Shown piece after piece: positions 2,747 to 27,498 of a stretch of 30,732 nucleotides of DNA; within the stretch, counting starts at the first letter, position 1; each line of letters starts with the position of its first letter. The DNA is from a virus. The stretch covers positions 1 through 30,732 of IMG/VR virus record IMGVR_UViG_3300020378_000020; one strand, written 5' to 3'. Under the pieces are notes generated by a model. It did no database searches. It saw only the letters and a program-made list of their open reading frames with translations, and was not told where the DNA came from. The translations under genes were made by a program, and so were the position numbers.

Positions 2747-2980
2747 ATGGCAACAACAAATAAATTCGTTATAGAATACGGACTTAAAGTAGGAACTGCT
2801 GATGTTATTGACTCTTCAGGTAAAATTGCAGCCGCAGCCCTGTCGTCAATCGATACAGATGATATAACAGAAGGTTCATCAAATCAGTATTTTACCACTG
2901 CAAAAGTGGATACCCATTTAGCAAATGCTTCAGCTGCAAAAACACTTGCAAACGTTGCTATTGACGGAGGCACAATCTAA
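2747..2980 (+). CDS. Small fibre-related protein, N-terminal paralog of the next gene
   Basis: This 77-residue protein resembles the beginning of the large fibre downstream. It carries the same kind of opening (EYGLKVGTADVIDSSGKI versus NGLSVGGVEVINSSGD) and the motif ITEGSSNQYFT seen again in that fibre as ITEGSSNLYFT. It ends AIDGGTI, like the C-terminus of the gene that ends at 482. The stop overlaps the next start (TAATG), so translation is coupled. It may be a capping or adaptor subunit of the fibre, or a gene split from a longer ancestor. No enzymatic motif is seen. Confidence 0.65.
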   Translation: MATTNKFVIEYGLKVGTADVIDSSGKIAAAALSSIDTDDITEGSSNQYFTTAKVDTHLANASAAKTLANVAIDGGTI

Positions 2981-5040
2981 TGGCAGGAGAAAAGAATTTT
3001 AATATCAAGAACGGTTTATCCGTTGGTGGTGTAGAGGTAATCAACTCTTCAGGTGACTTAGTTGCTGCTGGAGTAGGAACTGCAGTTAACGAAGCAATCG
3101 CAGATAAGATTGGTGGTATTATAAGTGCAACAGGTGGTGCAACTGCAACATATAATGACGGTGCAGACACTATCGTAATTGACGTACCAATTACTGATGA
3201 AGATAACATGGCGTCAAACAGTGCGACTGCAATACCTTCACAACAATCAGTTAAAGCATACGTTGATTCACAAATTTTAACAAAAGACAATACAGACGAA
3301 ATTACAGAAGGTTCTAGTAATTTATATTTTACTAACGCAAGAGCAGATGCAAGAATATCAAACGCAATTAAAGACGAAGATAACATGGCGTCAGATAGTG
3401 CAACTCATGTTCCTTCACAACAATCAGTTAAAGCATATGTAGATGCAGTCACAACATCACTTAACTCACAAGATTTAGATATAAGTTCAGATAGTGGAAC
3501 TATAGATGTTGATTTAGATACTGAAACATTTACTATTGCTGGTGGTGCAGGTATTGATACATCTGCAACTGGTACTACATTAACAATCGCAGGAGAACTT
3601 GCAACAGAAACAAACGCTGGTATCGCAACATTTGACGGTACAGACTTTACAGTATCAAGTGGTGACGTAACAGTTAATGCAGAAAGAATCCAAGACATTG
3701 TCGGTGCAATGGTATCGTCAAATACTGAGTCAGGGATTACAGTTGCATATGAGGACGGAGATGGAACACTAGACTTTACAGTCGGTACACTTAACCAAGA
3801 TACAACAGGAAACGCAGCTACTGCTACTGCATTAGAGACTGCAAGAACTATTGGTGGTGTGTCATTTGACGGTTCTGCAAGTATAAACCTGCCAGGTGTA
3901 AACACTACAGGTAACCAAAATACTACAGGAAGTTCTGCATCATGTACAGGTAACGCAGCTACTGCTACAGCACTTGCAACTGCGAGAACAATTCACGGTG
4001 TATCTTTTGACGGAAGTGCAAATATTGACCTTACAGAAGTAGTTCAAGATACAGTAGGTGCAATGTTCAGTTCGAACACTGAAACAAACGTAACAGCAAC
4101 TTATCAAGATGATGATGGAACTATAGACCTAGTAGTTGGAGATACTACAGGAAACGCCGCTACAGCAACTGCATTAGAAACAGGAAGAACTATCGGAATG
4201 ACTGGTGATGTTGTTTGGACATCTGCAGCTTTTGACGGTTCAGGTAATGTTACAGGTACTGCAACAATTCAAGCTAACTCAGTTGCATTAGGAACAGATA
4301 CAACTGGTAACTATATGTCAGACGTATCTGCAGGAACTGGTGTTACAGTTTCACATACTGCAGGAGAAGGTTCGACTGCAACAATATCTATTGGACAGGC
4401 AGTTTCAACTTCTTCAGACGTTACTTTCGGAGATATAGCTGCAACAGATTTAACACTTAGTGGAAACTTAACAGTTAATGGTACTACAACAACTGCATCT
4501 TCAACTAACACTGTAATCGCAGATACATTGATTGAGTTAGGAAACGGTACATCAGGAACACCTGCAAACGATTCAGGTTTTGTAATCGAAAGGGGTTCAT
4601 CTGATAATGCATTTATTGGTTTTGACGAAAGTGCAGACAAGTTTACAATGGGTACAGGGTCATTTACAGGTGCAAGTACAGGTAACCTAACAATTACAAC
4701 TGGTACTCTTGTTGCAAACTTAGAAGGTAATGTCACTGGTGCTGTAACTGGTAATGCAAGTACAGCAACTACATTACAAAATGCAAGAACAATCAATGGT
4801 GTATCTTTTGACGGAAGTGCAAACATAACAACCTTGACTGCAGGAACAGGTGTTTCTGTATCAGGAACTGCAGTTTCTATTGGACAAGCAGTTGCAACAA
4901 CGTCAGATGTAGAGTTTAATGAGATAACTACAAACTACGCAAGTAATTCAGGTGGAGTCGCAAGAAATATATACCAATCAACCTCAGCTCCAGGCGGTGG
5001 TGACGGTGCAGTTGGTGATTTGTGGATTTTATACTCTTAA
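2980..5040 (+). CDS. Large repeat-rich tail fibre protein
   Basis: This 686-residue protein is built almost entirely of Thr/Ser/Ala/Gly/Asn-rich repeats. Two copies of a segment beginning DEDNMAS and containing PSQQSVKAYVD lie near residues 74 and 132. Several copies of TTGNAATATALETARTI(G/H)GVSFDG-type units lie from residue 270 onward, with further NLTVNGTTTT and NLEGNVTGAVTGNAST stretches. This is the usual make-up of a trimeric beta-helical fibre shaft in marine myoviruses. The C-terminus (IYQSTSAPGGGDGAVGDLWI) is a common fibre ending. It starts within the stop codon of the preceding gene (TAATG). Receptor specificity cannot be inferred. Confidence 0.85.
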   Translation: MAGEKNFNIKNGLSVGGVEVINSSGDLVAAGVGTAVNEAIADKIGGIISATGGATATYNDGADTIVIDVPITDEDNMASNSATAIPSQQSVKAYVDSQILTKDNTDEITEGSSNLYFTNARADARISNAIKDEDNMASDSATHVPSQQSVKAYVDAVTTSLNSQDLDISSDSGTIDVDLDTETFTIAGGAGIDTSATGTTLTIAGELATETNAGIATFDGTDFTVSSGDVTVNAERIQDIVGAMVSSNTESGITVAYEDGDGTLDFTVGTLNQDTTGNAATATALETARTIGGVSFDGSASINLPGVNTTGNQNTTGSSASCTGNAATATALATARTIHGVSFDGSANIDLTEVVQDTVGAMFSSNTETNVTATYQDDDGTIDLVVGDTTGNAATATALETGRTIGMTGDVVWTSAAFDGSGNVTGTATIQANSVALGTDTTGNYMSDVSAGTGVTVSHTAGEGSTATISIGQAVSTSSDVTFGDIAATDLTLSGNLTVNGTTTTASSTNTVIADTLIELGNGTSGTPANDSGFVIERGSSDNAFIGFDESADKFTMGTGSFTGASTGNLTITTGTLVANLEGNVTGAVTGNASTATTLQNARTINGVSFDGSANITTLTAGTGVSVSGTAVSIGQAVATTSDVEFNEITTNYASNSGGVARNIYQSTSAPGGGDGAVGDLWILYS

Positions 5041-5072: not shown

Positions 5073-6371
5073 ATGGCATCAGGAAAACAACACGTCAAAA
5101 CCCCTTCAGGGTGGAATGCAACCCAAGGTGCTTGGGTGAAAACGGGTGGCACAACATGGAAAGCAGTAGACCAAATTTACATTAAAACACCTTCAGGGTG
5201 GAATAATGCATCGGGTCAATCAAATGTACAACAACCATATCCGTACATAGCAAACTCTCAAACACCTTATATTGCTAACGCACAACAACCTTATCCGTAT
5301 ATTGCAAACTCGCAAACACCTTATATTGCGAATGCACAAAATCCTTATCCGTATCAGGCAAATAGTCAGACTCCTGTTATTGCTAACGCACAACAACCGT
5401 ATCCATATCAGGCGAATAGTCAGACTCCATATATTGCGAATGCACAACAACCATACCCATATATTGCAAATAGTCAGACTCCATATCCTGCAAATGCTCA
5501 ACAACCATATCCGTACATAGCAAACAGTCAGAGTCCATTTACATATCAGAACAGGTCACCATTTACATATAGAAACCCTGTTTCTGCACAACAACCATAT
5601 ATTGCAAATGGTCAAAACCCGTTTACATATAACGCAAGGTATCCTGCAAATGCAAGACAACCTAGTAACGGACAAAACCCATTTACATATAACGCAAGGT
5701 ATCCTGCGAATGCTAGGTATCCTGCAAACGGTCAGAACCCGTTTACATATAATGCAAGGTCACCTTTCACCTATAGGGTTCCGTTTACCTATCGAGTACC
5801 TTACATTGCAAACGCAAGGCAGCCTGGTACATATAATGCAAGGTCACCTTTCACATATCCATATAGTTCATTCCCATTCGGGGGTGGTGGTTGTTTCATA
5901 GCTGGAACACAAATTTGGATGGGTGATAATAAACACATTAATATTGAGGACGTTAAAGTTGGTGATTCAGTAATGACATTTGACTTTAATCATATGAAAC
6001 TTATGCCTCAAAATGTAACTCAGGTTATGGTTCCAAGAGAAAATATTAAAGTTTGGAATATAGAATTTACAAACGGAAAAACACTAGGTGTAACTGGTGG
6101 TCACCCGATACATACTAGTTCAGGGTGGAAATATGCGAATCAGGAAGAGTGCGATAACGAATTAGCGTCAGGTGCTGATTGGGGAATCGATTTAGTAGAA
6201 GAACTCCAAGTGGGAGATGAAGTCTTTGCACTAGGAGAAGAAGGTGTAACAGTTAAATCCATAACAGAAAATGGAACTGCGACAGTATATCATTTAACGT
6301 CCGTTGAACACACTAAAACATATTTTGCAGACGGTGTGTTGGTACATAACGGTTATTACGGGAAACACTAA
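5073..6371 (+). CDS. Pro/Tyr-rich repeat fibre protein with C-terminal Hint (intein-like) domain
   Basis: This 432-residue protein has three parts. Residues 1-50 hold two KTPSGWN motifs (9-15, 38-44). Residues 53-268 are low-complexity tandem repeats: five 18-residue units of the PYPYIANSQTPYIANAQQ type (5235-5504), then irregular SPFTYQNR, NPFTYNARYPANAR and VPFTYR units. Residues 274-426 form a Hint fold. It starts at Cys274 after a GGGG linker (GGGGCFIAGTQIWM) and has a block-B TGGHPIH (Thr341, His344). It ends YFADGVLVHN with His425-Asn426, followed by only six residues (GYYGKH). Hint domains cleave peptide bonds at their ends. The +1 residue is Gly, not Cys/Ser/Thr, so bacterial-intein-like processing is more likely than classical splicing. 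The cleaved product and its role are inferred. Confidence 0.8.
   Translation: MASGKQHVKTPSGWNATQGAWVKTGGTTWKAVDQIYIKTPSGWNNASGQSNVQQPYPYIANSQTPYIANAQQPYPYIANSQTPYIANAQNPYPYQANSQTPVIANAQQPYPYQANSQTPYIANAQQPYPYIANSQTPYPANAQQPYPYIANSQSPFTYQNRSPFTYRNPVSAQQPYIANGQNPFTYNARYPANARQPSNGQNPFTYNARYPANARYPANGQNPFTYNARSPFTYRVPFTYRVPYIANARQPGTYNARSPFTYPYSSFPFGGGGCFIAGTQIWMGDNKHINIEDVKVGDSVMTFDFNHMKLMPQNVTQVMVPRENIKVWNIEFTNGKTLGVTGGHPIHTSSGWKYANQEECDNELASGADWGIDLVEELQVGDEVFALGEEGVTVKSITENGTATVYHLTSVEHTKTYFADGVLVHNGYYGKH
5235..5504 (+). repeat. Five 54-bp in-frame tandem repeats
   Basis: Five consecutive 54-base units encode 18-residue variants of PYPYIANSQTPYIANAQQ. Units differ mainly at synonymous or near-synonymous positions (ATT/ATA, GCA/GCT, ATT/CAG), which fits expansion followed by drift. 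A sixth partial unit leads into SPFTYQ-type repeats that continue to about 5870. Confidence 0.9.
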
Positions 6372-7069
6372 TGCCACAGGGTAACGCACAACAACCATCT
6401 ATTGCGAACAGTCAAAGTCCGTTCACATATAATGCTAGGTATCCTGCGAATGCTAGGTATCCTGCATCTGCTCAACAACCGTATATTGCGAATGCGAGAC
6501 AACCTTTCACATATAGGGTTCCATTTACCTATCGAGTACCTTATATTGCGAATGCGAGACAACCGTTTACATACAGACACCCATTTACATATAGGGTTCC
6601 ATACATTGCGAATGCAAGACAACCATTTACTTATCAAAACAGGTCTCCGTTTACATATAGAAACCCTGTAAATGGACAACAACCTTATATTGCAAACGCA
6701 AGACAGCCTGGAACATATCAAAGAACTGGACAGACACCGTTTACATATCAGGCAAGACAGCCTGGAACATATCAAAGAACTGGTAGAACACCGTTCACAT
6801 ATCAGAACAGACAACCTTCTACATATGCAAGACAAGGACAAACTCCTTTCACATATCAACATAGACAGCCAGGAACTTATGAAAGACAAGGTCAAACACC
6901 TACTACATATCAAAACAGGCAGCCTGGAACATATGCCCGACAAGGACAAACTCCATTTACATATCAAAACAGACAGCCTGGAACATATGCAAGACAAGGT
7001 AGGACACCAGTCATTAGGTGGGATAATACACTATCTCAACAATGGCCTGCGACACCAGTTACAAGTTAA
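6371..7069 (+). CDS. Arg/Pro/Tyr-rich repeat protein, partner of the Hint fibre
   Basis: This 232-residue protein is repeat sequence over nearly its whole length, in the same style as the upstream gene (NARYPANARYP, RVPFTYRVPYIANARQPF). From residue 110 to 217 it becomes six regular 18-residue units such as NRQPGTYARQGQTPFTYQ. It ends with a non-repeat tail, WDNTLSQQWPATPVTS. It is strikingly basic: many Arg, one Glu and one Asp in total, and no Lys. The start overlaps the upstream stop (TAATG), so it is translated by coupling. It probably belongs to the same fibre assembly. No enzyme motif is present. It could alternatively bind DNA or a negatively charged surface; the sequence does not decide this. 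Confidence 0.7.
   Translation: MPQGNAQQPSIANSQSPFTYNARYPANARYPASAQQPYIANARQPFTYRVPFTYRVPYIANARQPFTYRHPFTYRVPYIANARQPFTYQNRSPFTYRNPVNGQQPYIANARQPGTYQRTGQTPFTYQARQPGTYQRTGRTPFTYQNRQPSTYARQGQTPFTYQHRQPGTYERQGQTPTTYQNRQPGTYARQGQTPFTYQNRQPGTYARQGRTPVIRWDNTLSQQWPATPVTS
6698..7021 (+). repeat. Six 54-bp in-frame tandem repeats
   Basis: Six 54-base units encode (A/N/H)RQPGTY(Q/A/E)R(T/Q)G(Q/R)TPFTYQ. The period equals that of the repeats in the upstream Hint protein although the motif differs, which suggests a common structural register of 18 residues. Confidence 0.9.
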
Positions 7070-7077
7070 TTTTTGTA

Positions 7078-7085
7078 ACTAAATA
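7078..7085 (+). promoter_or_regulatory. Late-promoter variant (ACTAAATA)
   Basis: ACTAAATA lies 16 bases upstream of the ATG at 7102. An AAAGGATA ribosome binding site sits between the two. It probably drives the modification-enzyme genes that follow the repeat proteins. Confidence 0.5.
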
Positions 7086-7101
7086 TTGAAAAGGATATAT
7101 T

Positions 7102-8601
7102 ATGAAAAAAATTACTACGCTAGAGCAAGCAAAGTCCACTATTACTAAAGAAACAACCGAGACATTTCATCTTGGGGCACTCAATATTGGTCAAGAAAGT
7201 CTAGACCAAGAAACCTTTGACATAATGAACTGGATGTTCGAAGAGATACTTCCACCACTTAAAATTTTTAAATGGGGTGATATACTTCAACAGAGAAAAG
7301 ATAAAAAGTTCATGGGTTTTAATGGAATGCAAAATAAAGCAATACCATATCACACATATCTACATAAGGGGTATTCGTCTCTTAAAATGCAAGGAAACCA
7401 CGCAGGATTTGGTTTTAAGACACTAGACGGTACAGAAAAATCAATTACCGATTCTATGATTCCACATTACGATGAGATGGTGGGGTCGTGTTATTATCAT
7501 GGTGCAAAAGGACACTGGTTAACACAAAGTATTATGGAAGAAGGACTTTGGGCACCAATCCAAGGATACACTAGAACTGCAGGTGGTAAGTGTCAATTAA
7601 CAATTCACCCAGGCTCTGTTCGTTCCTGTATATTCGAAGAAATGGAAAATGAAGATATGGAACTAATGATATGGGATAGGACTGGTGATTTAGATTTTCT
7701 ACCAAGTGCAACATTCCAAAATGCATTAGATTACTGGAAAGGTAAATTAGATAAAAAGGAAAGACACCTTAATATATCATTTCTATTCACGAGAGGTGCA
7801 ATAGAATGGCAAACAGATTTAGCAGAATTAGGATTTAGAGAAAAGGTATTTGAATTTAACAAAAGAATTACCGAACTTTCTGCAGGTAAACCACTTTCCA
7901 TATACATTGGATATGATAGTACAATGAATGATTTAGAGAAAGTGTGTGAGAAATCAATTAGAGATACAATTCGACTTGCACATTCAACTGGGGAAGGAGA
8001 ACAATACATGAAGTATGACCCAGTTATCAAATTGCTTGACATTTCTAAACTTCCCGATTATAATAGGGAGTACGCAAATCAAAGTACTGAATTTACATAC
8101 AGTAGATTCTTAATTCCATATCTAGAAAATTACGAAGGATTTAGTTTATTCATAGATAACGATTTCATATTTAAGAAATCTCTATTACCTATGTTTTATT
8201 ATCTCAATCCTAATGATGCAGTTGCGTGTATCAAATACCCACAATATCAACATGATGAATCTAAATTTAATGGAGAAGTTAATATAGACTATCCATGTAA
8301 GTTGTGGTCTTCAATGATGTTCTTCAATAACAGTCATGAGGACTGTAAGAAGTTAACACCTGAAGTAGTAAACACTTGGACTGGAAAACAATTACACCAG
8401 TTTGAGTGGACTAACGCAATATCCGAAATACCTCAAAAATACATATTTGTGGAAGGTTATGACAATCCTGATGAAAAATGGGATTACACTGGAATCCATT
8501 ACACTAGGGGAGGCCCATGGATAAATGATATGGATTATTCGTCAATAAATAATCTTGAAGTGTACCACAAGTACAAAAACCTCTATGACAACACAAAATA
8601 A
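7102..8601 (+). CDS. GT8-like (glycogenin-type) glycosyltransferase with N-terminal extra domain
   Basis: In this 499-residue protein the C-terminal half looks like a GT-A family 8 glycosyltransferase. It has an SIYIGYDSTMN strand near residues 264-274, an EFTYSRFLIPYL segment, and LFIDNDF with Asp352-Asn-Asp354 as the metal/nucleotide-sugar DxD motif. NDAVACIKYP follows. Family 8 enzymes move sugars from UDP- or similar donors; glycogenin modifies tyrosine. Residues 1-260 are not part of that fold. They contain GLWAPIQGY and LTIHPGSVRS, faintly recalling ParB/substrate-binding sequences, but I do not identify them. It lies directly after two Tyr/Pro-rich repeat proteins, so virion glycosylation is a reasonable inference; host surface modification is the alternative. 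Confidence 0.7.
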   Translation: MKKITTLEQAKSTITKETTETFHLGALNIGQESLDQETFDIMNWMFEEILPPLKIFKWGDILQQRKDKKFMGFNGMQNKAIPYHTYLHKGYSSLKMQGNHAGFGFKTLDGTEKSITDSMIPHYDEMVGSCYYHGAKGHWLTQSIMEEGLWAPIQGYTRTAGGKCQLTIHPGSVRSCIFEEMENEDMELMIWDRTGDLDFLPSATFQNALDYWKGKLDKKERHLNISFLFTRGAIEWQTDLAELGFREKVFEFNKRITELSAGKPLSIYIGYDSTMNDLEKVCEKSIRDTIRLAHSTGEGEQYMKYDPVIKLLDISKLPDYNREYANQSTEFTYSRFLIPYLENYEGFSLFIDNDFIFKKSLLPMFYYLNPNDAVACIKYPQYQHDESKFNGEVNIDYPCKLWSSMMFFNNSHEDCKKLTPEVVNTWTGKQLHQFEWTNAISEIPQKYIFVEGYDNPDEKWDYTGIHYTRGGPWINDMDYSSINNLEVYHKYKNLYDNTK

Positions 8602-8612
8602 TGTGGTATAAT
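8585..8612 (+). promoter_or_regulatory. Sigma-70-type promoter with extended -10
   Basis: ATGACA (8585-8590), a 16-base spacer and TATAAT (8607-8612), preceded by TG-N (TGGTATAAT), make a near-consensus host promoter. It overlaps the end of the glycosyltransferase gene. The predicted mRNA has a short leader with AGGAAAA before the ATG at 8636, so the downstream genes can be expressed independently of late transcription. Confidence 0.65.
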
Positions 8613-8635
8613 AGATAGATTATAGGAAAATTATT

Positions 8636-9205
8636 ATGAACGTAAGAAATGCTTTAATATTTACCGAAGACGGTAACCTTTTCGTTAGAAAACCTAACGG
8701 ACTTGAATATGAGTTTCAAAATGTAGATAGACCTGAGTTGGGATTTGAGTACGATGTTCTAGTATATGACGATATAGAAGTTAAAGTCGTAAAATGGAAT
8801 CCCGAAGTTAATTTTGATATGCAAGAAAAATCAGACCTTTCTCCTGATGAGAAAGATATGATTGAACAATACATTGCAAATTCAGAACCACCTCTAGGAG
8901 TAAATCTAAACAATCAATTAATGTCCAAATTGAACAATAGAGTAAATGATTTTTTGAAAGAATGTATTGATATACATGGATTTACAGATTTAACTGAAGT
9001 TACTTTTGCAGGAAGAGAAGGGTCAAATCACCCATGTCGTTCTAATGCAAGAAGAGTCATGGAATATGGTGATGCACTTTTTAACATACTAGACCAAATA
9101 TGTGCTGAAATCAAACAAACTCGTGAAGACATATTGAAAGAATATGAGGAGTATGAACAACATATTCCAATACCAACAAAACTTCCCGACCATCAACAAA
9201 GGTAA
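8636..9205 (+). CDS. Conserved-looking phage protein of unknown function
   Basis: I do not recognise this 189-residue protein. The N-terminal 65 residues look like a small beta domain (ALIFTEDGNLFVRKPNG, YDVLVYDDIEVKVVKW). An acidic linker follows. The C-terminal half is helical and contains a polar signature, EVTFAGREGSNHPCRSNARRV, then a Glu-rich tail with coiled-coil character. There is no signal peptide or membrane segment. It has a clear AGGA ribosome binding site and its own sigma-70-like promoter. It is followed after 3 bases by an oxygenase gene, so it is probably co-transcribed with the modification enzymes. Confidence 0.6.
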   Translation: MNVRNALIFTEDGNLFVRKPNGLEYEFQNVDRPELGFEYDVLVYDDIEVKVVKWNPEVNFDMQEKSDLSPDEKDMIEQYIANSEPPLGVNLNNQLMSKLNNRVNDFLKECIDIHGFTDLTEVTFAGREGSNHPCRSNARRVMEYGDALFNILDQICAEIKQTREDILKEYEEYEQHIPIPTKLPDHQQR

Positions 9206-9208
9206 AGT

Positions 9209-9919
9209 ATGGAGATAGTTCACTTAGATGAACCATTCAAAATACAAGACTTACCACTAACAAAGGTTTATGTATTAGATAATTGGTTAGCCCAACCCTT
9301 ACACCACCACTATGATTCGTGGATTTCTCGAAATAATATTTGGAGTAAAACAAATCAAGTTGAGAGTGGTTCGTCCACGGGTTTACCACATCATAGTTTT
9401 TGGGGTGCAACCTTTTTTAGACATAATTATGCGATTGATAGGGATACTAAAGTTGAAGAAACTTGGTTTACAAGATACCTAGATAGAAGACTACAAACTG
9501 AATTCGGGTTTAAGTGGGTTAGGTTTCAGTATGCAGGTTTAAACTCGCAAACTGTAGGATTACAAGGAACAACCCATTCAGATTGCGATAAAGACGATGC
9601 TTGGAATCTTTCGTTTTTATACTATCCAAATAGATTTTGGAATCCTGCGTGGGGTGGAAGATTGAGATTCTATGATTCACCACAACAAGGATTAGACGGA
9701 AGAGACGAACATATTAAAAATCACCAAATAGGTGAGGTTGATTTTAAACCAAATAGACTTATTATGTTTGACGGAAGAATACCACATGGTGCAGATGCAC
9801 CCGAAGAGTCTGCAAGATATATGGACAGAAGGTCACTTGTAATTCGTGGAGACGAAGTAAGACTAGAAGAAGAAGGAGAGAATTATCATGCCAACGATAG
9901 ATTTTCATACATACGATAA
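9209..9919 (+). CDS. 2-oxoglutarate/Fe(II)-dependent oxygenase (prolyl-hydroxylase-like)
   Basis: This 236-residue protein has the double-stranded beta-helix iron triad. HSD motif: His123 and Asp125 in GTTHSDCD. Distal His: His193 in IPHGA. A 2-oxoglutarate-binding Arg is near 207-208 (DRRSLVIR). The intervening SFLYYPNRFWNPAWGGRLRFY is the usual core of phage prolyl-4-hydroxylase-like enzymes. Such enzymes hydroxylate protein side chains, nucleobases or small molecules; the substrate is not encoded in the motif. Its position next to Pro-rich fibre proteins suggests a protein substrate, as inference. The last 32 bases overlap the next gene, whose ribosome binding site (AAGGAGAG) lies inside this one. 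Confidence 0.85.
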   Translation: MEIVHLDEPFKIQDLPLTKVYVLDNWLAQPLHHHYDSWISRNNIWSKTNQVESGSSTGLPHHSFWGATFFRHNYAIDRDTKVEETWFTRYLDRRLQTEFGFKWVRFQYAGLNSQTVGLQGTTHSDCDKDDAWNLSFLYYPNRFWNPAWGGRLRFYDSPQQGLDGRDEHIKNHQIGEVDFKPNRLIMFDGRIPHGADAPEESARYMDRRSLVIRGDEVRLEEEGENYHANDRFSYIR

Positions 9920-10826
9920 AGAAACAGTAAGAAACTTTAGACCAGTTCTCGCAAAATCTGTTGCTCCTAGTTGGTGGAAAAAGGCAAAAGTTGCTGAAGT
10001 GGTAAATGGTATAGTTGCAAAAACTATTAGGTCTTGTCCTGCAATGCAAGATTGGTTATCTTCAGGTTATCTAATCCTCGCAAATAGAGACATATATGTA
10101 AGAAATGGTGTAACACCTGAAGATTCAAATACAAGATTTTTCCATACCGAAGATACTGTATTGGACGAAATGGAAACTTATGCATCTGCAACACACCCAA
10201 CTATACAAATGCATGATGCATTCTCGTATATGTCTACAAGTGATGCACCAGTAAAAGATGCATTTAAAATGTCTAATCCTTGGAACATAACTACACCACC
10301 AGGCTATTCGTGTTTTTATCTAGACCCATTCTTATTTCAAAATGATTACTTTGCAACATGGCAAGGTATTATTGATACAGATAAATTCAATGTAAACAAA
10401 GATAACTCTCAAATTATCTTTTATCCTAAAGTGAATCATTCGTTTGTTATTAAGAAAGGAACACCTATATGTCAGGTAATTCCTTATCAAAGAGAAGAGT
10501 GGGTTGCAACGTATACAGTAAAAGACCATAAATCATATATTACTAATCTATCCGAATACACTACAGAAAGAGAAGACGGTCATAAGACTATGGCAGAATT
10601 ATCTAGAACAGGACTTGCAGATGAATTGCATAAGGCAGGGCCATATAAGAGAGGAAGAAGGTGGCAACCTAAACATAAAGATTTCAAAGAGGATTTAGAA
10701 GGGTGTCCATTCGACCCTAAAACAGGTAAATTAAAACCTGAGTTTCAACAAGAAATGGAAAAAAACTTTAAAGAAGAACAATTAAAAAGAACAGACTTAA
10801 ATTGGGACGGACAAGATGGCAGTTAG
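9888..10826 (+). CDS. DUF6065-like protein
   Basis: In this 312-residue protein, residues 28-65 (APSWWKKAK..., then IRSCPAMQDWLSSGYLI) and the aromatic-rich centre (PPGYSCFYLDPFLFQ, IIFYPKVNHSFVIKKGTP, ICQVIPYQREEW) resemble the DUF6065 proteins found in marine phages. These are often near oxygenases and glycan genes. The centre looks like a beta-barrel or cupin-like domain. The C-terminal 80 residues are Lys/Glu-rich and helical. The ATG at 9888 is supported by a strong AAGGAGAG seven bases upstream. The function is unknown; the family name is from memory of its signature and should be treated as tentative. Confidence 0.6.
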   Translation: MPTIDFHTYDKETVRNFRPVLAKSVAPSWWKKAKVAEVVNGIVAKTIRSCPAMQDWLSSGYLILANRDIYVRNGVTPEDSNTRFFHTEDTVLDEMETYASATHPTIQMHDAFSYMSTSDAPVKDAFKMSNPWNITTPPGYSCFYLDPFLFQNDYFATWQGIIDTDKFNVNKDNSQIIFYPKVNHSFVIKKGTPICQVIPYQREEWVATYTVKDHKSYITNLSEYTTEREDGHKTMAELSRTGLADELHKAGPYKRGRRWQPKHKDFKEDLEGCPFDPKTGKLKPEFQQEMEKNFKEEQLKRTDLNWDGQDGS

Positions 10827-11526
10827 ATTATTATTCCCAACCCCTATTTTTCATAGAAACTTTACACAAGAAAATCTTTCAGACGATAGAGGATTTGATA
10901 AAGATTATTGTTTAATGTTAAGAGATGAAATGGATGCGATGCGAAGAAGAGACCCAGTGGGTAGACAACTTTCAAATCAATATACAGGTTGGCAGTCAAA
11001 TGACGGGTGTGAGTCTAATCCTACTTTTCAAAAATGTATGAATAGAATCATAACATTTTTTAATGACGAAGCATTACCTTATCATGGATTAGACCCTAGT
11101 CTTTGTAAAATGGAAATAACAAATTCATGGGCAAACATTAACGACAATGGTGCTTGGAATGCACCACACTTACACAATGGGTGTTGGTATAGTGGTGTTT
11201 TTTATATACACGCAGAAGGTGATGAAGGACGTATTTCATTTCTTGATACACACCAAAAGGTTGCAGCTGATTTTCCTAACAGTCCTAGAACCCCAACTTC
11301 ATATCCTTTTTTACCTGTAACGGGTGAGTGTATATTGTTTCCAAGTGGTCTAATGCATATGGTTGAACCAAATCCTACAAATAAAGAAAGATATAGTATA
11401 TCATTCAACACTATTATAAATTACGAATCACTCGAATCAGGTCATGCAAGAAACGGTCAAATAGAAGACTATAATGAAAATGAATTTTTATTTGATTTAG
11501 ATATGAAAGGAAACCCAATCAGATAG
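10816..11526 (+). CDS. 2OG-Fe(II) oxygenase, LFPTPIF family
   Basis: This 236-residue protein opens with LLFPTPIFHRNF, the hallmark start of the Pfam 2OG-FeII_Oxy_5 (TIGR02466) family. It also carries NSWANIN (103-109), NAPHLHNGCWYSGVFYI with His118 and His120, and the distal half ECILFPSGLMHMVEPN (His181). ERYSISFN follows (Arg192). All expected ligand regions are present, so the enzyme looks intact. The substrate is unknown for the family. It overlaps the preceding gene by 11 bases and closes the modification cassette; the next gene has a separate late promoter. Confidence 0.88.
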   Translation: MAVRLLFPTPIFHRNFTQENLSDDRGFDKDYCLMLRDEMDAMRRRDPVGRQLSNQYTGWQSNDGCESNPTFQKCMNRIITFFNDEALPYHGLDPSLCKMEITNSWANINDNGAWNAPHLHNGCWYSGVFYIHAEGDEGRISFLDTHQKVAADFPNSPRTPTSYPFLPVTGECILFPSGLMHMVEPNPTNKERYSISFNTIINYESLESGHARNGQIEDYNENEFLFDLDMKGNPIR

Positions 11527-11547: not shown

Positions 11548-11808
11548 ATGGAAATTGTAGTAGACGCTCATATCATTTGGAATGTAATTCTAACTTTAGT
11601 TTTAGGCCCTTTAGGGTTTCTAGTCAGAAACTTACTAGCGGAACAACAAAGACTATCTATTTTAATTAACAGAACTAGAGAAGAAGTTGCTAAAGATTAC
11701 GTCACTAGAGAACAAATTGAGAAAGATTTCCAAAGATTAATCGATACTATTGAAAGAATAGACGAAAAAATAGATAGACTCCAATCTAAGACTTACTTCC
11801 AAGAATAG
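11548..11808 (+). CDS. Small membrane-anchored coiled-coil protein
   Basis: This 86-residue protein has one hydrophobic helix (about residues 8-28, IIWNVILTLVLGPLGFLV). A charged heptad-like helix follows (EEVAKDYVTREQIEKDF, then LIDTIERIDEKIDRLQ) and probably forms a coiled coil. The layout is that of a single-pass protein with a long cytoplasmic or periplasmic stalk. It could be a lysis or superinfection factor, or a small virion protein; it shows no lipobox or endopeptidase motif. It has its own late promoter with no leader and sits between the oxygenases and the neck genes. Confidence 0.65.
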   Translation: MEIVVDAHIIWNVILTLVLGPLGFLVRNLLAEQQRLSILINRTREEVAKDYVTREQIEKDFQRLIDTIERIDEKIDRLQSKTYFQE

Positions 11809-11862: not shown

Positions 11863-12678
11863 ATGGCAGCACCTAATTCAAAAGCAACATTTAAAGAATA
11901 CATCAAACGAGCATTAGGTCATCCTGTTGTTGAAATCAATATAGATGACGACCAATTAGACGATAGAGTCGATGAAGCACTGCAATATTTCCGTGAGTTT
12001 CACTACGATGGTTCAATTAAATGTTATTTAAAACATAAAATTACGCAAACTGAGATAGATTCATTTAAGACAAATGAAACACACTCAGCTGCAACAACTG
12101 GAACACAGGCAATCGCAAACCAAACTTACGAGGAAGGTAAGAATTATATAACACTTCCTGAACACGTTCTTTCAGTTATTAACATATTCCCATTCCATTC
12201 GGGAACCCAATCAAATATGTTTGATATTCAATATCAACTAAGATTAAATGACTTGTGGGATTTAACTTCTACAAGTGTTTTATATTACCACCAAGTGCAA
12301 TCTCATCTCGCACTTCTAAATCAGATGTTGGTCGGTCAAGTACCCATAAGATATAATATGCACGCTAATAGATTGTATATTGACTATAATGCAGAGAAAC
12401 TATCTGCAAATGAGTACATTATTATTGAATGTTATAGAAAGATAGACCCAAATGATATGACAGATGTCTATAACGATATGTGGTTGAAAAAATATGCAAC
12501 TGCAAAAGTTAAATATCAATGGGGTGAAAATTTATCAAAATTCCAAGGTATCGCATTACCAGGCGGAGTGACACTTGATTCTGAACGTATGAAGACTGAA
12601 GCACAAGAAGAAATCACAAAACTAGAGGAAGAATCAAGGTTAAATTACGAAATGCCTGTTATGGACATGATGGGGTAA
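11863..12678 (+). CDS. gp13: Neck protein gp13
   Basis: This 271-residue protein matches the T4 gp13 head-completion family. The N-terminal signature is FKEYIKRALGHPVVEINI, then DDQLDDRVDEALQYFREFH. The conserved C-terminal half includes LYIDYNAEKLSANEYIIIE and WLKKYATAKVKYQWGENL. In T4, gp13 and gp14 form the neck that seals the filled head and receives the tail. T4 gp13 is slightly longer (about 309 residues). Downstream, gp14 begins 4 bases after the stop, as expected for subunits made together. Residues about 73-87 (AATTGTQAIANQTYE) look like a variable loop. Confidence 0.92.
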   Translation: MAAPNSKATFKEYIKRALGHPVVEINIDDDQLDDRVDEALQYFREFHYDGSIKCYLKHKITQTEIDSFKTNETHSAATTGTQAIANQTYEEGKNYITLPEHVLSVINIFPFHSGTQSNMFDIQYQLRLNDLWDLTSTSVLYYHQVQSHLALLNQMLVGQVPIRYNMHANRLYIDYNAEKLSANEYIIIECYRKIDPNDMTDVYNDMWLKKYATAKVKYQWGENLSKFQGIALPGGVTLDSERMKTEAQEEITKLEEESRLNYEMPVMDMMG

Positions 12679-24794: not shown

Positions 24795-25241
24795 TTAAAA
24801 ATCTCCTTCGGCGACTTGAACACAAGTGGTTCCTCTTTGTCTCCACATATCAACAACTTTGTTTCTATCGTCAAAGACAATGTCGATTTTTCCACCGAAC
24901 TCTTCGAATTTATCTGCAAGGTCAGATTTGAATTCTTCATCGGGTCTAAAATCACCATCAGGTCTTAAAAACAAACCTTTATGACCGTCACCAATCCACT
25001 CAGAAATCTGTTTCTCAGTAACGTCTCTTTGTGACTCATTTCTCGCAGAAAAGAACGCAACATCGTCACCCCTTGCAATATGTCTTTTTGCAAGGTCGCA
25101 AACCCATTCAACAGGAGTATCATTTATAGTTTCTTCTTTAAATGACTTCCAGTCTGCAGGTCTTTGAACAACGAAATGTCTTCTATGCTCTACATCAGCG
25201 ATAGTTCCGTCAACGTCAAAAATTATAGTTTGTTTTTCCAT
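24795..25241 (-). CDS. Free-standing PseT-like polynucleotide 3'-phosphatase (HAD family)
   Basis: This 148-residue protein aligns by eye with the C-terminal phosphatase domain of T4 polynucleotide kinase. HAD motif I is IIFDVDGTIAD (Asp9, Asp11) and motif II is VAFFSARNE (Ser65). A Lys lies in the EEFKSDL helix and motif IV is IDIVFDDRNKVV (Asp124-Asp125-Arg). The end, MWRQRGTTCVQVAEGDF, is close to the PseT C-terminus. The 5'-kinase domain is absent. It likely removes 3'-phosphates from RNA or DNA, for example after tRNA cleavage by host defences, or acts on nucleotides. It is the only reverse-strand gene. ATG 25241 is preferred because the promoter overlaps any earlier start. Confidence 0.85.
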   Translation of the reverse strand: MEKQTIIFDVDGTIADVEHRRHFVVQRPADWKSFKEETINDTPVEWVCDLAKRHIARGDDVAFFSARNESQRDVTEKQISEWIGDGHKGLFLRPDGDFRPDEEFKSDLADKFEEFGGKIDIVFDDRNKVVDMWRQRGTTCVQVAEGDF

Positions 25242-25247
25242 GGTTCT

Positions 25248-25277
25248 ATTATACGAAAAAATGCAACCCATTGTCAA
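25248..25277 (-). promoter_or_regulatory. Consensus sigma-70 promoter, predicted leaderless
   Basis: On the reverse strand, TTGACA (25277-25272), an 18-base spacer and TATAAT (25253-25248) form a perfect-hexamer host-type promoter. Six bases (AGAACC) separate it from the ATG, so the predicted +1 is the A of the start codon at 25241. This implies early, host-polymerase expression of the phosphatase. Confidence 0.85.
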
Positions 25278-26826: not shown

Positions 26827-27498
26827 ATGATATTGAAAAATTATGTGTGGCAAGCACCTGAGTTTTTTACAAGACAAGAAATCCAAGAACTAATCACTGC
26901 ATCTGATGTCTTACCATGGCACGCTGGTCAAGTAGGGACACCTGCAGATGAAGATTCAGAACAAGAGGGTGGAACGGAAGACCACAACATTCGTAGTTCT
27001 CAGATAAAATGGTTTCTAATGGAACAGAATCATATGCCTAAACATATAGAAAACAAACTATATCAGGCAATAGACATTGCAAATGAACAATGCGAATGGA
27101 ATCATGCGTGGGATTATATGGAGAATCCTCAGTATACTGTTTACAATGAACAGAAACAAAGACAAGGAGACTTCTATACTTGGCATACAGATTCAGGCCC
27201 ATTTTTATATTCTAACGGTTGTCATAGAAAATTAAGTATGACCGTACAGTTATCAGACCAAGACGATTACGAGGGTGGTCACTTTCAGTGGTTAGAACCT
27301 CACCAACAGTTTGATAAAATGTTTACAAATGTTTCTAATATAGACATGACCGATGCAGTTAAGACATTATCTTTTTCTGCAAAAAGTATTGGAAGTGTTG
27401 TGGTATTCCCTTCATTTCTATATCATCAAGTAACACCAGTACTAAGAGGAACTAGAAAATCATTAGTATGTTGGTTTAGTGGAAAACCTTATGTCTGA
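26827..27498 (+). CDS. PKHD-type 2OG-Fe(II) hydroxylase
   Basis: This 223-residue protein carries an intact iron/2-oxoglutarate site. It has FYTWHTDSGPF with His120 and Asp122, YEGGHFQWLEP, and VVVFPSFLYHQVTPV with His200. GTRKSLVCWFSGKPYV follows, with Arg210 expected to bind 2-oxoglutarate. This is the PiuC-like PKHD pattern common in marine T4-like phages. Its substrate is unknown. The third oxygenase of the window, it lies within a recombination/replication operon rather than beside the fibres. It starts one base after uvsY and overlaps uvsW by 8 bases. Confidence 0.88.
   Translation: MILKNYVWQAPEFFTRQEIQELITASDVLPWHAGQVGTPADEDSEQEGGTEDHNIRSSQIKWFLMEQNHMPKHIENKLYQAIDIANEQCEWNHAWDYMENPQYTVYNEQKQRQGDFYTWHTDSGPFLYSNGCHRKLSMTVQLSDQDDYEGGHFQWLEPHQQFDKMFTNVSNIDMTDAVKTLSFSAKSIGSVVVFPSFLYHQVTPVLRGTRKSLVCWFSGKPYV

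Follow-up and report, generated by a model that had tools for sequence, protein, structure and literature searches.

What does a run of enzyme genes do beside two repeat-protein genes at the edge of a phage tail-fibre region? The question is raised by the virus record IMGVR_UViG_3300020378_000020, which was studied whole (30,732 bases, hereafter the window) and in which positions 5073-11526 are filled by seven open reading frames (ORFs). These lie on the plus strand, abut or overlap, and encode, in this order, two Tyr/Pro repeat proteins (REP1 and REP2), a glycosyltransferase (GT), a 189-residue protein (U189), an Fe(II)/2-oxoglutarate (2OG) oxygenase (OG1), a DUF6065-like protein (D6065) and a second such oxygenase (OG2). 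A first-pass annotation had delimited these genes, all seven of which are intact, and had proposed that the enzymes modify the repeat proteins in the manner of extensins or collagens. Our analysis partly supports this interpretation and corrects its analogy. The seven genes are inherited together as a unit within a single phage clade and very probably form one functional unit; that they represent a fibre-tailoring cassette specific to this clade of T4-like marine phages, in which rod proteins are encoded together with their own finishing enzymes, is a reading to which we give an even chance.

One gene set in one phage clade

Relatives were collected with four probes: GT (30 loci), REP2 (the best 80 of 278), U189 (the best 80 of 216) and D6065 (the best 80 of 267). 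In 80 of its best 80 loci, REP2 is accompanied by GT, U189, OG1, D6065 and OG2, arranged as in the window. A single order holds in all 254 loci; any gaps are confined to the left contig end, and in two loci GT is divided between two ORFs. Five of the 254 loci, lacking U189 where a contig end cuts them, were excluded, and the other 249 were clustered at 95% U189 identity into 57 clusters, whose U189 identity to the window falls to 50%. The whole set, both repeat genes included, was found in 46 of the 57 clusters and in the same order in every one of the 46; in the remaining 11, the first visible gene is cut by the contig end or lies no more than 55 bases from it. Conserved co-occurrence, the point on which the proposal had been declared open to refutation beforehand, was borne out: contig ends aside, the genes are inseparable in the 57 clusters, with no loss, inversion or split despite the divergence of U189 to about 50% identity.

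Outside the carriers, C48C1 is the cultured phage with the most similar terminase (55%), and its structural genes run straight into the neck gene; U189, D6065, GT and OG1 are absent from the whole C48C1 record, positives being detected in each search. A neck-gene scan from C48C1, covering the best 80 of at least 590 relatives, gave 81 neck loci, and the exclusion of 39 with less than 2.5 kb upstream left 42 outgroup T4-like loci, C48C1 included (37 distinct, counting C48C1; 15 reach at least 7.9 kb before the neck gene). No part of the cassette precedes the neck gene in any of these 42 loci. Neck identity to the window is 64-100% in carriers and 35-48% in the outgroup, and no phage was seen between 48 and 64%. 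The set thus comes complete or not at all, and it also tracks one clade. Since it is constant in the carriers and missing from the outgroup loci, the cassette is one inherited unit of that clade.

Around the set, neighbouring genes vary, inserts occur and the Hint domain of REP1 is lost in places, the gene set itself staying constant. The tail-fibre-like gene just upstream, FIB, diverges between representatives (31-83% in partial alignments, the near-identical L003 aside). Some relatives carry a 430-residue gene between D6065 and OG2 (L007:10699-11991); it matches a biotin carboxylase model only marginally (E = 0.0066) and is possibly an ATP-grasp ligase. In two clusters a further gene lies between GT and U189; the two were read from their sequences as an ABC-type ATPase (L093:9568-10197) and a peroxiredoxin-like protein (L100:3751-4260).

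Gene order in the window is T4-like, running from tail-fibre genes through the block to the neck, the terminase and further structural genes. FIB (686 residues, 2980-5040, plus strand) has matches down to E = 1.8e-38 among PHROG tail fibre families and partially matches proteins in 13 phage records, several of which carry a tail fibre annotation. Behind the block, a small protein, M86 (11548-11808, plus strand), with a tblastn match in all 57 cluster representatives, stands before the bordering neck gene N271 (11863-12678, plus strand), which matches the annotated head-tail adaptor Ad2 of C48C1 at 37%. Within the block, frames overlap by 1 base between REP1 and REP2, by 32 bases between OG1 and D6065 and by 11 bases between D6065 and OG2. 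Elsewhere among the plus-strand genes, a minus-strand ORF (24795-25277) begins with FDVDGTIADV, a start that looks HAD-like by eye.

Repeat proteins with a two-residue period

REP1 (432 residues, 5073-6371, plus strand) consists of an N-terminal Trp-containing segment, Tyr/Pro repeats and a C-terminal Hint domain, and REP2 (232 residues, 6371-7069, plus strand) of repeats followed by a C-terminal end that is conserved as PVIRWD..LSQQWP in an alignment of 11 sequences. Both ORFs contain tandem repeats with a 54-bp period (Tandem Repeats Finder scores 313 and 311), built from short units such as PFTYQNRQ, PGTYARQGQT, PYIANAQQ and PANARY, among others. The distances between successive prolines are even almost without exception: 34 even and 0 odd in the REP1 repeats, and 25 even and 1 odd in REP2, where the single odd spacing precedes the repeats, compared with 49 even and 53 odd in 18 other proteins of the window. 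Across the 57 clusters, 99 repeat proteins give 3362 even distances against 4 odd ones, and of 672 distinct inter-proline units 668 follow the rule; these counts are inflated by the shared ancestry of the units, yet unit lengths of 2, 4, 6, 8 and 10 residues all occur, so that lengths differ and stay even. The Pro/Tyr/Asn-rich repeat pair of the first-pass annotation is therefore real, its even spacing lying far above chance.

The other residues follow the same period. The share of Tyr (2918 residues) and of Phe (1119 residues) that falls on the proline phase rounds to 0.00, and that of Ile is 0.97. A two-residue period with Pro and Ile on one phase and Tyr and Phe on the other leads one to expect an extended, beta-like, two-faced rod, and REP1 and REP2 are accordingly predicted to be extended rods with a Pro/Ile face and a Tyr/Phe face. 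One turn of a polyproline II or collagen helix takes about three residues, and with a repeat period of two the proposed likeness to extensins or collagens fails. These share with the cassette the combination of Pro-rich repeats and oxygenases; the cassette differs in its period of 2 instead of 3 and in having neither Gly-X-Y nor Ser-Pro(n). A collagen-like protein was rejected on the spacings of 2, 4, 6, 8 and 10, which follow no rule of three, and an extensin-like one, with Ser and a proline run, on the finding that prolines are never adjacent (a spacing of 1 in 0 of 3366 distances, 99 proteins). REP2 contains no lysine at all, which excludes collagen-type lysine chemistry on it.

Between the window and its relative L016, differences at codon positions 1, 2 and 3 number 19, 20 and 57 in REP2 and 53, 51 and 127 in REP1. 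As the third position differs most, the REP frames are under protein-level selection. Long alternative frames also run over the repeats, at 5220-5504 (minus strand), 5602-5901 (plus), 6368-6997 (minus) and 6672-7082 (plus); with position 3 varying most in the REP frame, they are probably a by-product of repeat composition.

The Hint domain of REP1 (5892-6371, plus strand) scores over the cut-offs of PF14623 (32.5 bits against 27) and PF01079 (31.4 bits against 29.7). In an alignment of 10 such domains, in which the window's row began one codon late, the starting Cys, TGGH (the TxxH block) and the C-terminal HN followed by Gly are kept, and the domain carries the residues for its known chemistry. 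The residue after the C-terminal Asn is Gly in nine domains and Ala in one. A splicing intein was rejected on the lack of Cys, Ser or Thr at this place and on a PF14890 score of 29.8 bits against 35.8. The main form of the domain, lacking the splicing nucleophile, probably cleaves itself off REP1, which would leave a Gly-rich end resembling the one that 10 clusters encode directly. Over the 46 clusters, REP1 ends in the Hint domain in 19, a Hint variant in 2, a Gly-rich tail in 10, another domain in 8 and other ends in 7. Hint processing had been suggested as the final step of the system; the domain is absent from 25 of the 46 REP1 proteins and is optional within the cassette. Two REP1 proteins (L103:5736-7001 and L105:2-1162) end in a different Hint-like domain (GCFLCCVHD...) that the main Hint profile does not match. 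In L053, L075, L237 and L250, genes of 85-100 residues lie between REP1 and REP2, and REP1 there ends in another domain, not Hint.

The enzymes and a related pair in cyanophages

Both oxygenases are intact Fe(II)/2OG enzymes, as first annotated. OG1 (9209-9919, plus strand; phrog_274, E = 3.1e-19) scores 31.8 bits against PF13640 (cut-off 27), and its H123, D125, H193 and R203, which we take to be the Fe/2OG residues, are invariant in 11 of 11 relatives. OG2 (10816-11526, plus strand), of the TIGR02466 family, scores 66.1 bits against PF13759 (cut-off 27) and 93.5 bits against TIGR02466 (cut-off 62.5); the expected His, Asp and Arg residues are again invariant in 11 of 11 relatives, and the solved structures 3bvc and 2rg4 are related to it. 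OG1 was rejected as a prolyl hydroxylase by sequence, the match of its profile to one solved prolyl hydroxylase being weak (E = 0.03), and as FlmC of NCBIfam, where it reaches 33 of the 240 bits required. Apart from a generic 2OG match of OG1, a search for defence systems among the five non-repeat cassette proteins gave nothing. Further downstream, after the head genes and separate from the cassette, the window encodes a third 2OG oxygenase (26827-27498, plus strand; PF13640, 48.6 bits), which weakly matches PKHD-type hydroxylases.

GT (499 residues, 7102-8601, plus strand; phrog_28018, E = 1.4e-41) is a fusion in which an N-terminal part, GTN (residues about 1-258), precedes a GT-A part (residues 259-499). 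Its score against PF01501 (GT8) is 21.8 bits, under the curated 24.3, and we therefore name it GT8-like only. The fold half of that label stands: in an AlphaFold model with a predicted local distance difference test score (pLDDT) of 86.9, the C-terminal half is clearly a GT-A fold, and D352, D354 and H466 are invariant in 47 sequences, so that the DxD motif, the metal site of GT-A glycosyltransferases, is kept. The closest folds are LgtC (Z = 16.8 over 209 residues, root-mean-square deviation 3.2), an Anaerococcus GT8 enzyme (16.0), GlyE (15.3) and glycogenin (15.0). LgtC is a lipopolysaccharide enzyme, and GlyE of Streptococcus pneumoniae is a GT8 enzyme dedicated to a serine-rich-repeat adhesin. 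The GlyE system is thus similar in pairing a GT8 enzyme with a repeat adhesin (18% identity between the enzymes), and differs in that the cassette has a Tyr-, Pro-, Gln- and Asn-rich repeat, oxygenases are added and only one glycosyltransferase is present. A glycogenin-like specificity for tyrosine had been suggested; with LgtC, GlyE and glycogenin fitting almost equally, the scores are too close for the model to tell the acceptor, and tyrosine is one option among several. Relatives of GT in cultured phages come from 18 records and match residues 260-490 only; in the phage records inspected, they stand away from any rod. A ParB-like nature of GTN, suggested by its IHPGSVR stretch, was rejected by sequence, as PF02195 has no match in the window.

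U189 (8636-9205, plus strand) has an N-terminal beta part and a C-terminal helical part (model pLDDT 93.2). Neither Pfam nor NCBIfam gave it a convincing match, a search of 50,697 phage records found no relative, and Foldseek matched nothing under E = 0.001 among solved or viral structures. Its likeness to a chaperone of the Pam3 gp25/Tfa kind (7ypx_a) reaches Z = 4.4 over only 88 residues. Two candidates were rejected: the small cyanophage fibre-side protein (profile comparison probability 0.1) and DUF4376 (PF14301, which matches nothing in the window). GTN and U189 turned up only alongside REP genes and seem specific for Tyr/Pro rods.

D6065 (9888-10826, plus strand; phrog_7084, E = 2.1e-32) is named DUF6065-like only, as it lies far under the PF19541 cut-off (14.4 bits against 26.6), that family matching at E <= 0.1 in 2 of 12 relatives. 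Remote relatives occur in haloviruses, where no annotated oxygenase stands near them in the two records inspected, and in cyanophages. In S-RIM44 and Sf-FP1, a homologue (E = 2.6e-20 and 6.4e-14; hhalign probability 97.6 for D6065 against the cyanophage protein) lies between tail-fibre genes and the neck gene, as in the window. The order there begins with Gly-rich tail-fibre genes and a small protein, continues with one or two tryptophan halogenases and D6065, then with six oxygenase-kind genes (2OG or JmjC families are matched by four of the six in Sf-FP1), and reaches the neck gene after one or two small genes. OG2 is also homologous (E down to 1.4e-29), and the cyanophage D6065-OG2 pair keeps its order, its frames sharing 11 and 8 bases. 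These islands share with the cassette the genomic place and the homologous pair with its order and overlapping frames; they differ in having other fibre proteins, halogenases and more oxygenases, and GT of the cassette kind and U189 are absent from the two examined (S-RIM44 and Sf-FP1).

A scan for cyanophage-type D6065, covering the best 80 of 91 loci, gave 39 clusters. Of these, 33 have oxygenase or oxygenase-like genes nearby and 28 have halogenases, and Gly-rich fibre genes and the small protein are each near in 21; an OG2-type oxygenase is directly beside D6065 in 19, and nothing recognised is near it in 5. The OGy and OGz profiles were built from cyanophage proteins without a Pfam match and are oxygenase-like by our own reading. 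The Gly-rich proteins match PHROG tail families, and the small fibre-side protein belongs to PHROGs of unknown function and resembles known fibre chaperones. Further cyanophage-type islands, with halogenases, a DUF6065-like gene and several 2OG or JmjC oxygenases behind Gly-rich fibre genes, were seen at L266, L268 and L349-L390; 13 loci (L395, L397-L400, L415 and similar) have two DUF6065-like genes beside a halogenase and an oxygenase, with no recognised fibre gene, and in S-RIM4 D6065 is located away from fibre genes. Standing beside fibre genes that lack Tyr/Pro repeats, the D6065-OG2 pair need not act on such repeats. Hence neither D6065 nor OG2 is specific for Tyr/Pro rods, and the proposal that all the enzymes modify the repeats does not hold for every enzyme.

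Substrates and rival readings

If the block is a fibre-tailoring cassette, REP1 and REP2 would form part of the virion fibre, a location that we infer from gene position, since the two have no relatives among annotated virion proteins. In the infected cell, before assembly, the oxygenases would hydroxylate side chains of the fibre and GT would add a sugar, and these modifications would change fibre stability or receptor binding. D6065 would partner OG2, the two perhaps acting on a feature shared with other fibres, and U189 would act as a helper. GT and OG1 are the best candidates for acting on the rods; that the rods are the true substrate of at least one cassette enzyme we hold about equally probable either way.

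Several points weigh against reading the block in this manner. All carriers belong to one clade, with neck identities of 64-100%, so that shared ancestry may account for part of the strict linkage. Cyanophages carry D6065 and OG2 without Tyr/Pro rods, and the GT8-like fold is as close to lipopolysaccharide enzymes such as LgtC. No relative of REP1 or REP2 was found among annotated virion proteins, where the REP1 N-terminus had no match either. The role of the rods as substrates is itself read from sequence and gene context. In cultured phages, REP2 matched only eight Pseudomonas phage records, which look unrelated, the one inspected having a repeat of the SNTGYQSAA type, and in a collection of bacterial and archaeal genomes REP2 gave 10 pattern matches and no relatives.

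The enzymes might instead modify another fibre subunit, either FIB or a tip protein, the rods being merely structural. In the window, FIB is the gene just before REP1, and the position of the D6065-OG2 pair next to Gly-rich tail-fibre genes without Tyr/Pro repeats indicates that the target need not be a repeat. However, FIB diverges (31-83%) while the enzymes and rods persist, and GTN and U189 keep solely to the REP genes, so we consider this alternative unlikely. Action on a host surface polysaccharide, or the making of a small molecule, would agree with LgtC, a lipopolysaccharide enzyme, as the best structural match of GT (Z = 16.8), and with the GT relatives in Mosig, DLP_6 and S-SCSM2R, which sit among glycosyltransferases or methyltransferases. 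It would also agree with roles proposed in passages of published work, where GT8 enzymes of pelagimyophages are ascribed to host O-chain modification (PMC7029224) and a cyanophage halogenase/2OG/cupin cluster is predicted to serve a secondary metabolite or capsule decoration (PMC7824862). In the cassette, however, no nucleotide-sugar or small-molecule scaffold genes were recognised, and in 46 of 46 clusters the set is tied to a pair of repeat genes where tail-fibre genes border the neck gene, whereas the glycosylation clusters described in PMC7824862 are sporadic and polymorphic; this makes such a role improbable. Common descent alone, with an ancestral phage gaining the block and synteny being kept without shared function, fits the way in which presence tracks the clade, neck identity being 64-100% in carriers and 35-48% in the 42 outgroup loci. 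Yet U189 diverges to about 50% identity without the set ever being lost, inverted or split, in a region described as hypervariable in related phages (PMC7029224, in part) and into which other genes do insert, and we regard this explanation as very unlikely.

A close precedent for a fibre-tailoring cassette is Mimivirus L230, for which passages of PMC4691112 describe a viral hydroxylase and glycosyltransferase that modify virus-encoded collagen-like proteins. As there, a virus encodes a repeat-rich structural protein together with its hydroxylase and glycosyltransferase. Mimivirus has collagen repeats bearing hydroxylysine-glucose, whereas the cassette has period-2 Tyr/Pro rods, a REP2 without lysine and separate oxygenases, comes from a bacterial virus and is known from its genes alone. 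Other published roles link a cyanophage halogenase to antibiotic protection (PMC2984593) and cyanophage 2OG enzymes to nitrogen signalling (PMC3037559). No description of the cassette was found by title or abstract in the open-licence literature, a weak absence given that scope.

More broadly, we suggest tentatively, as an idea somewhat less likely than even, that marine T4-like phages carry co-inherited enzyme sets that finish adhesive fibres after translation, giving oxidised and glycosylated rods here and halogenated and oxidised Gly-rich adhesins in cyanophages. The period-2 rod, neither collagen- nor extensin-like, could be a new fibre fold. If the broader idea is true, tryptophan halogenases, 2OG oxygenases and GT8 enzymes, until now assigned to host metabolism, the envelope or secondary metabolites, would be virion-tailoring enzymes, and genes that are common yet unexplained in marine T4-like phages would gain a function. 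Bacterial viruses would then chemically tailor their fibres with their own enzymes, and fixed mass shifts would be expected on fibre peptides.

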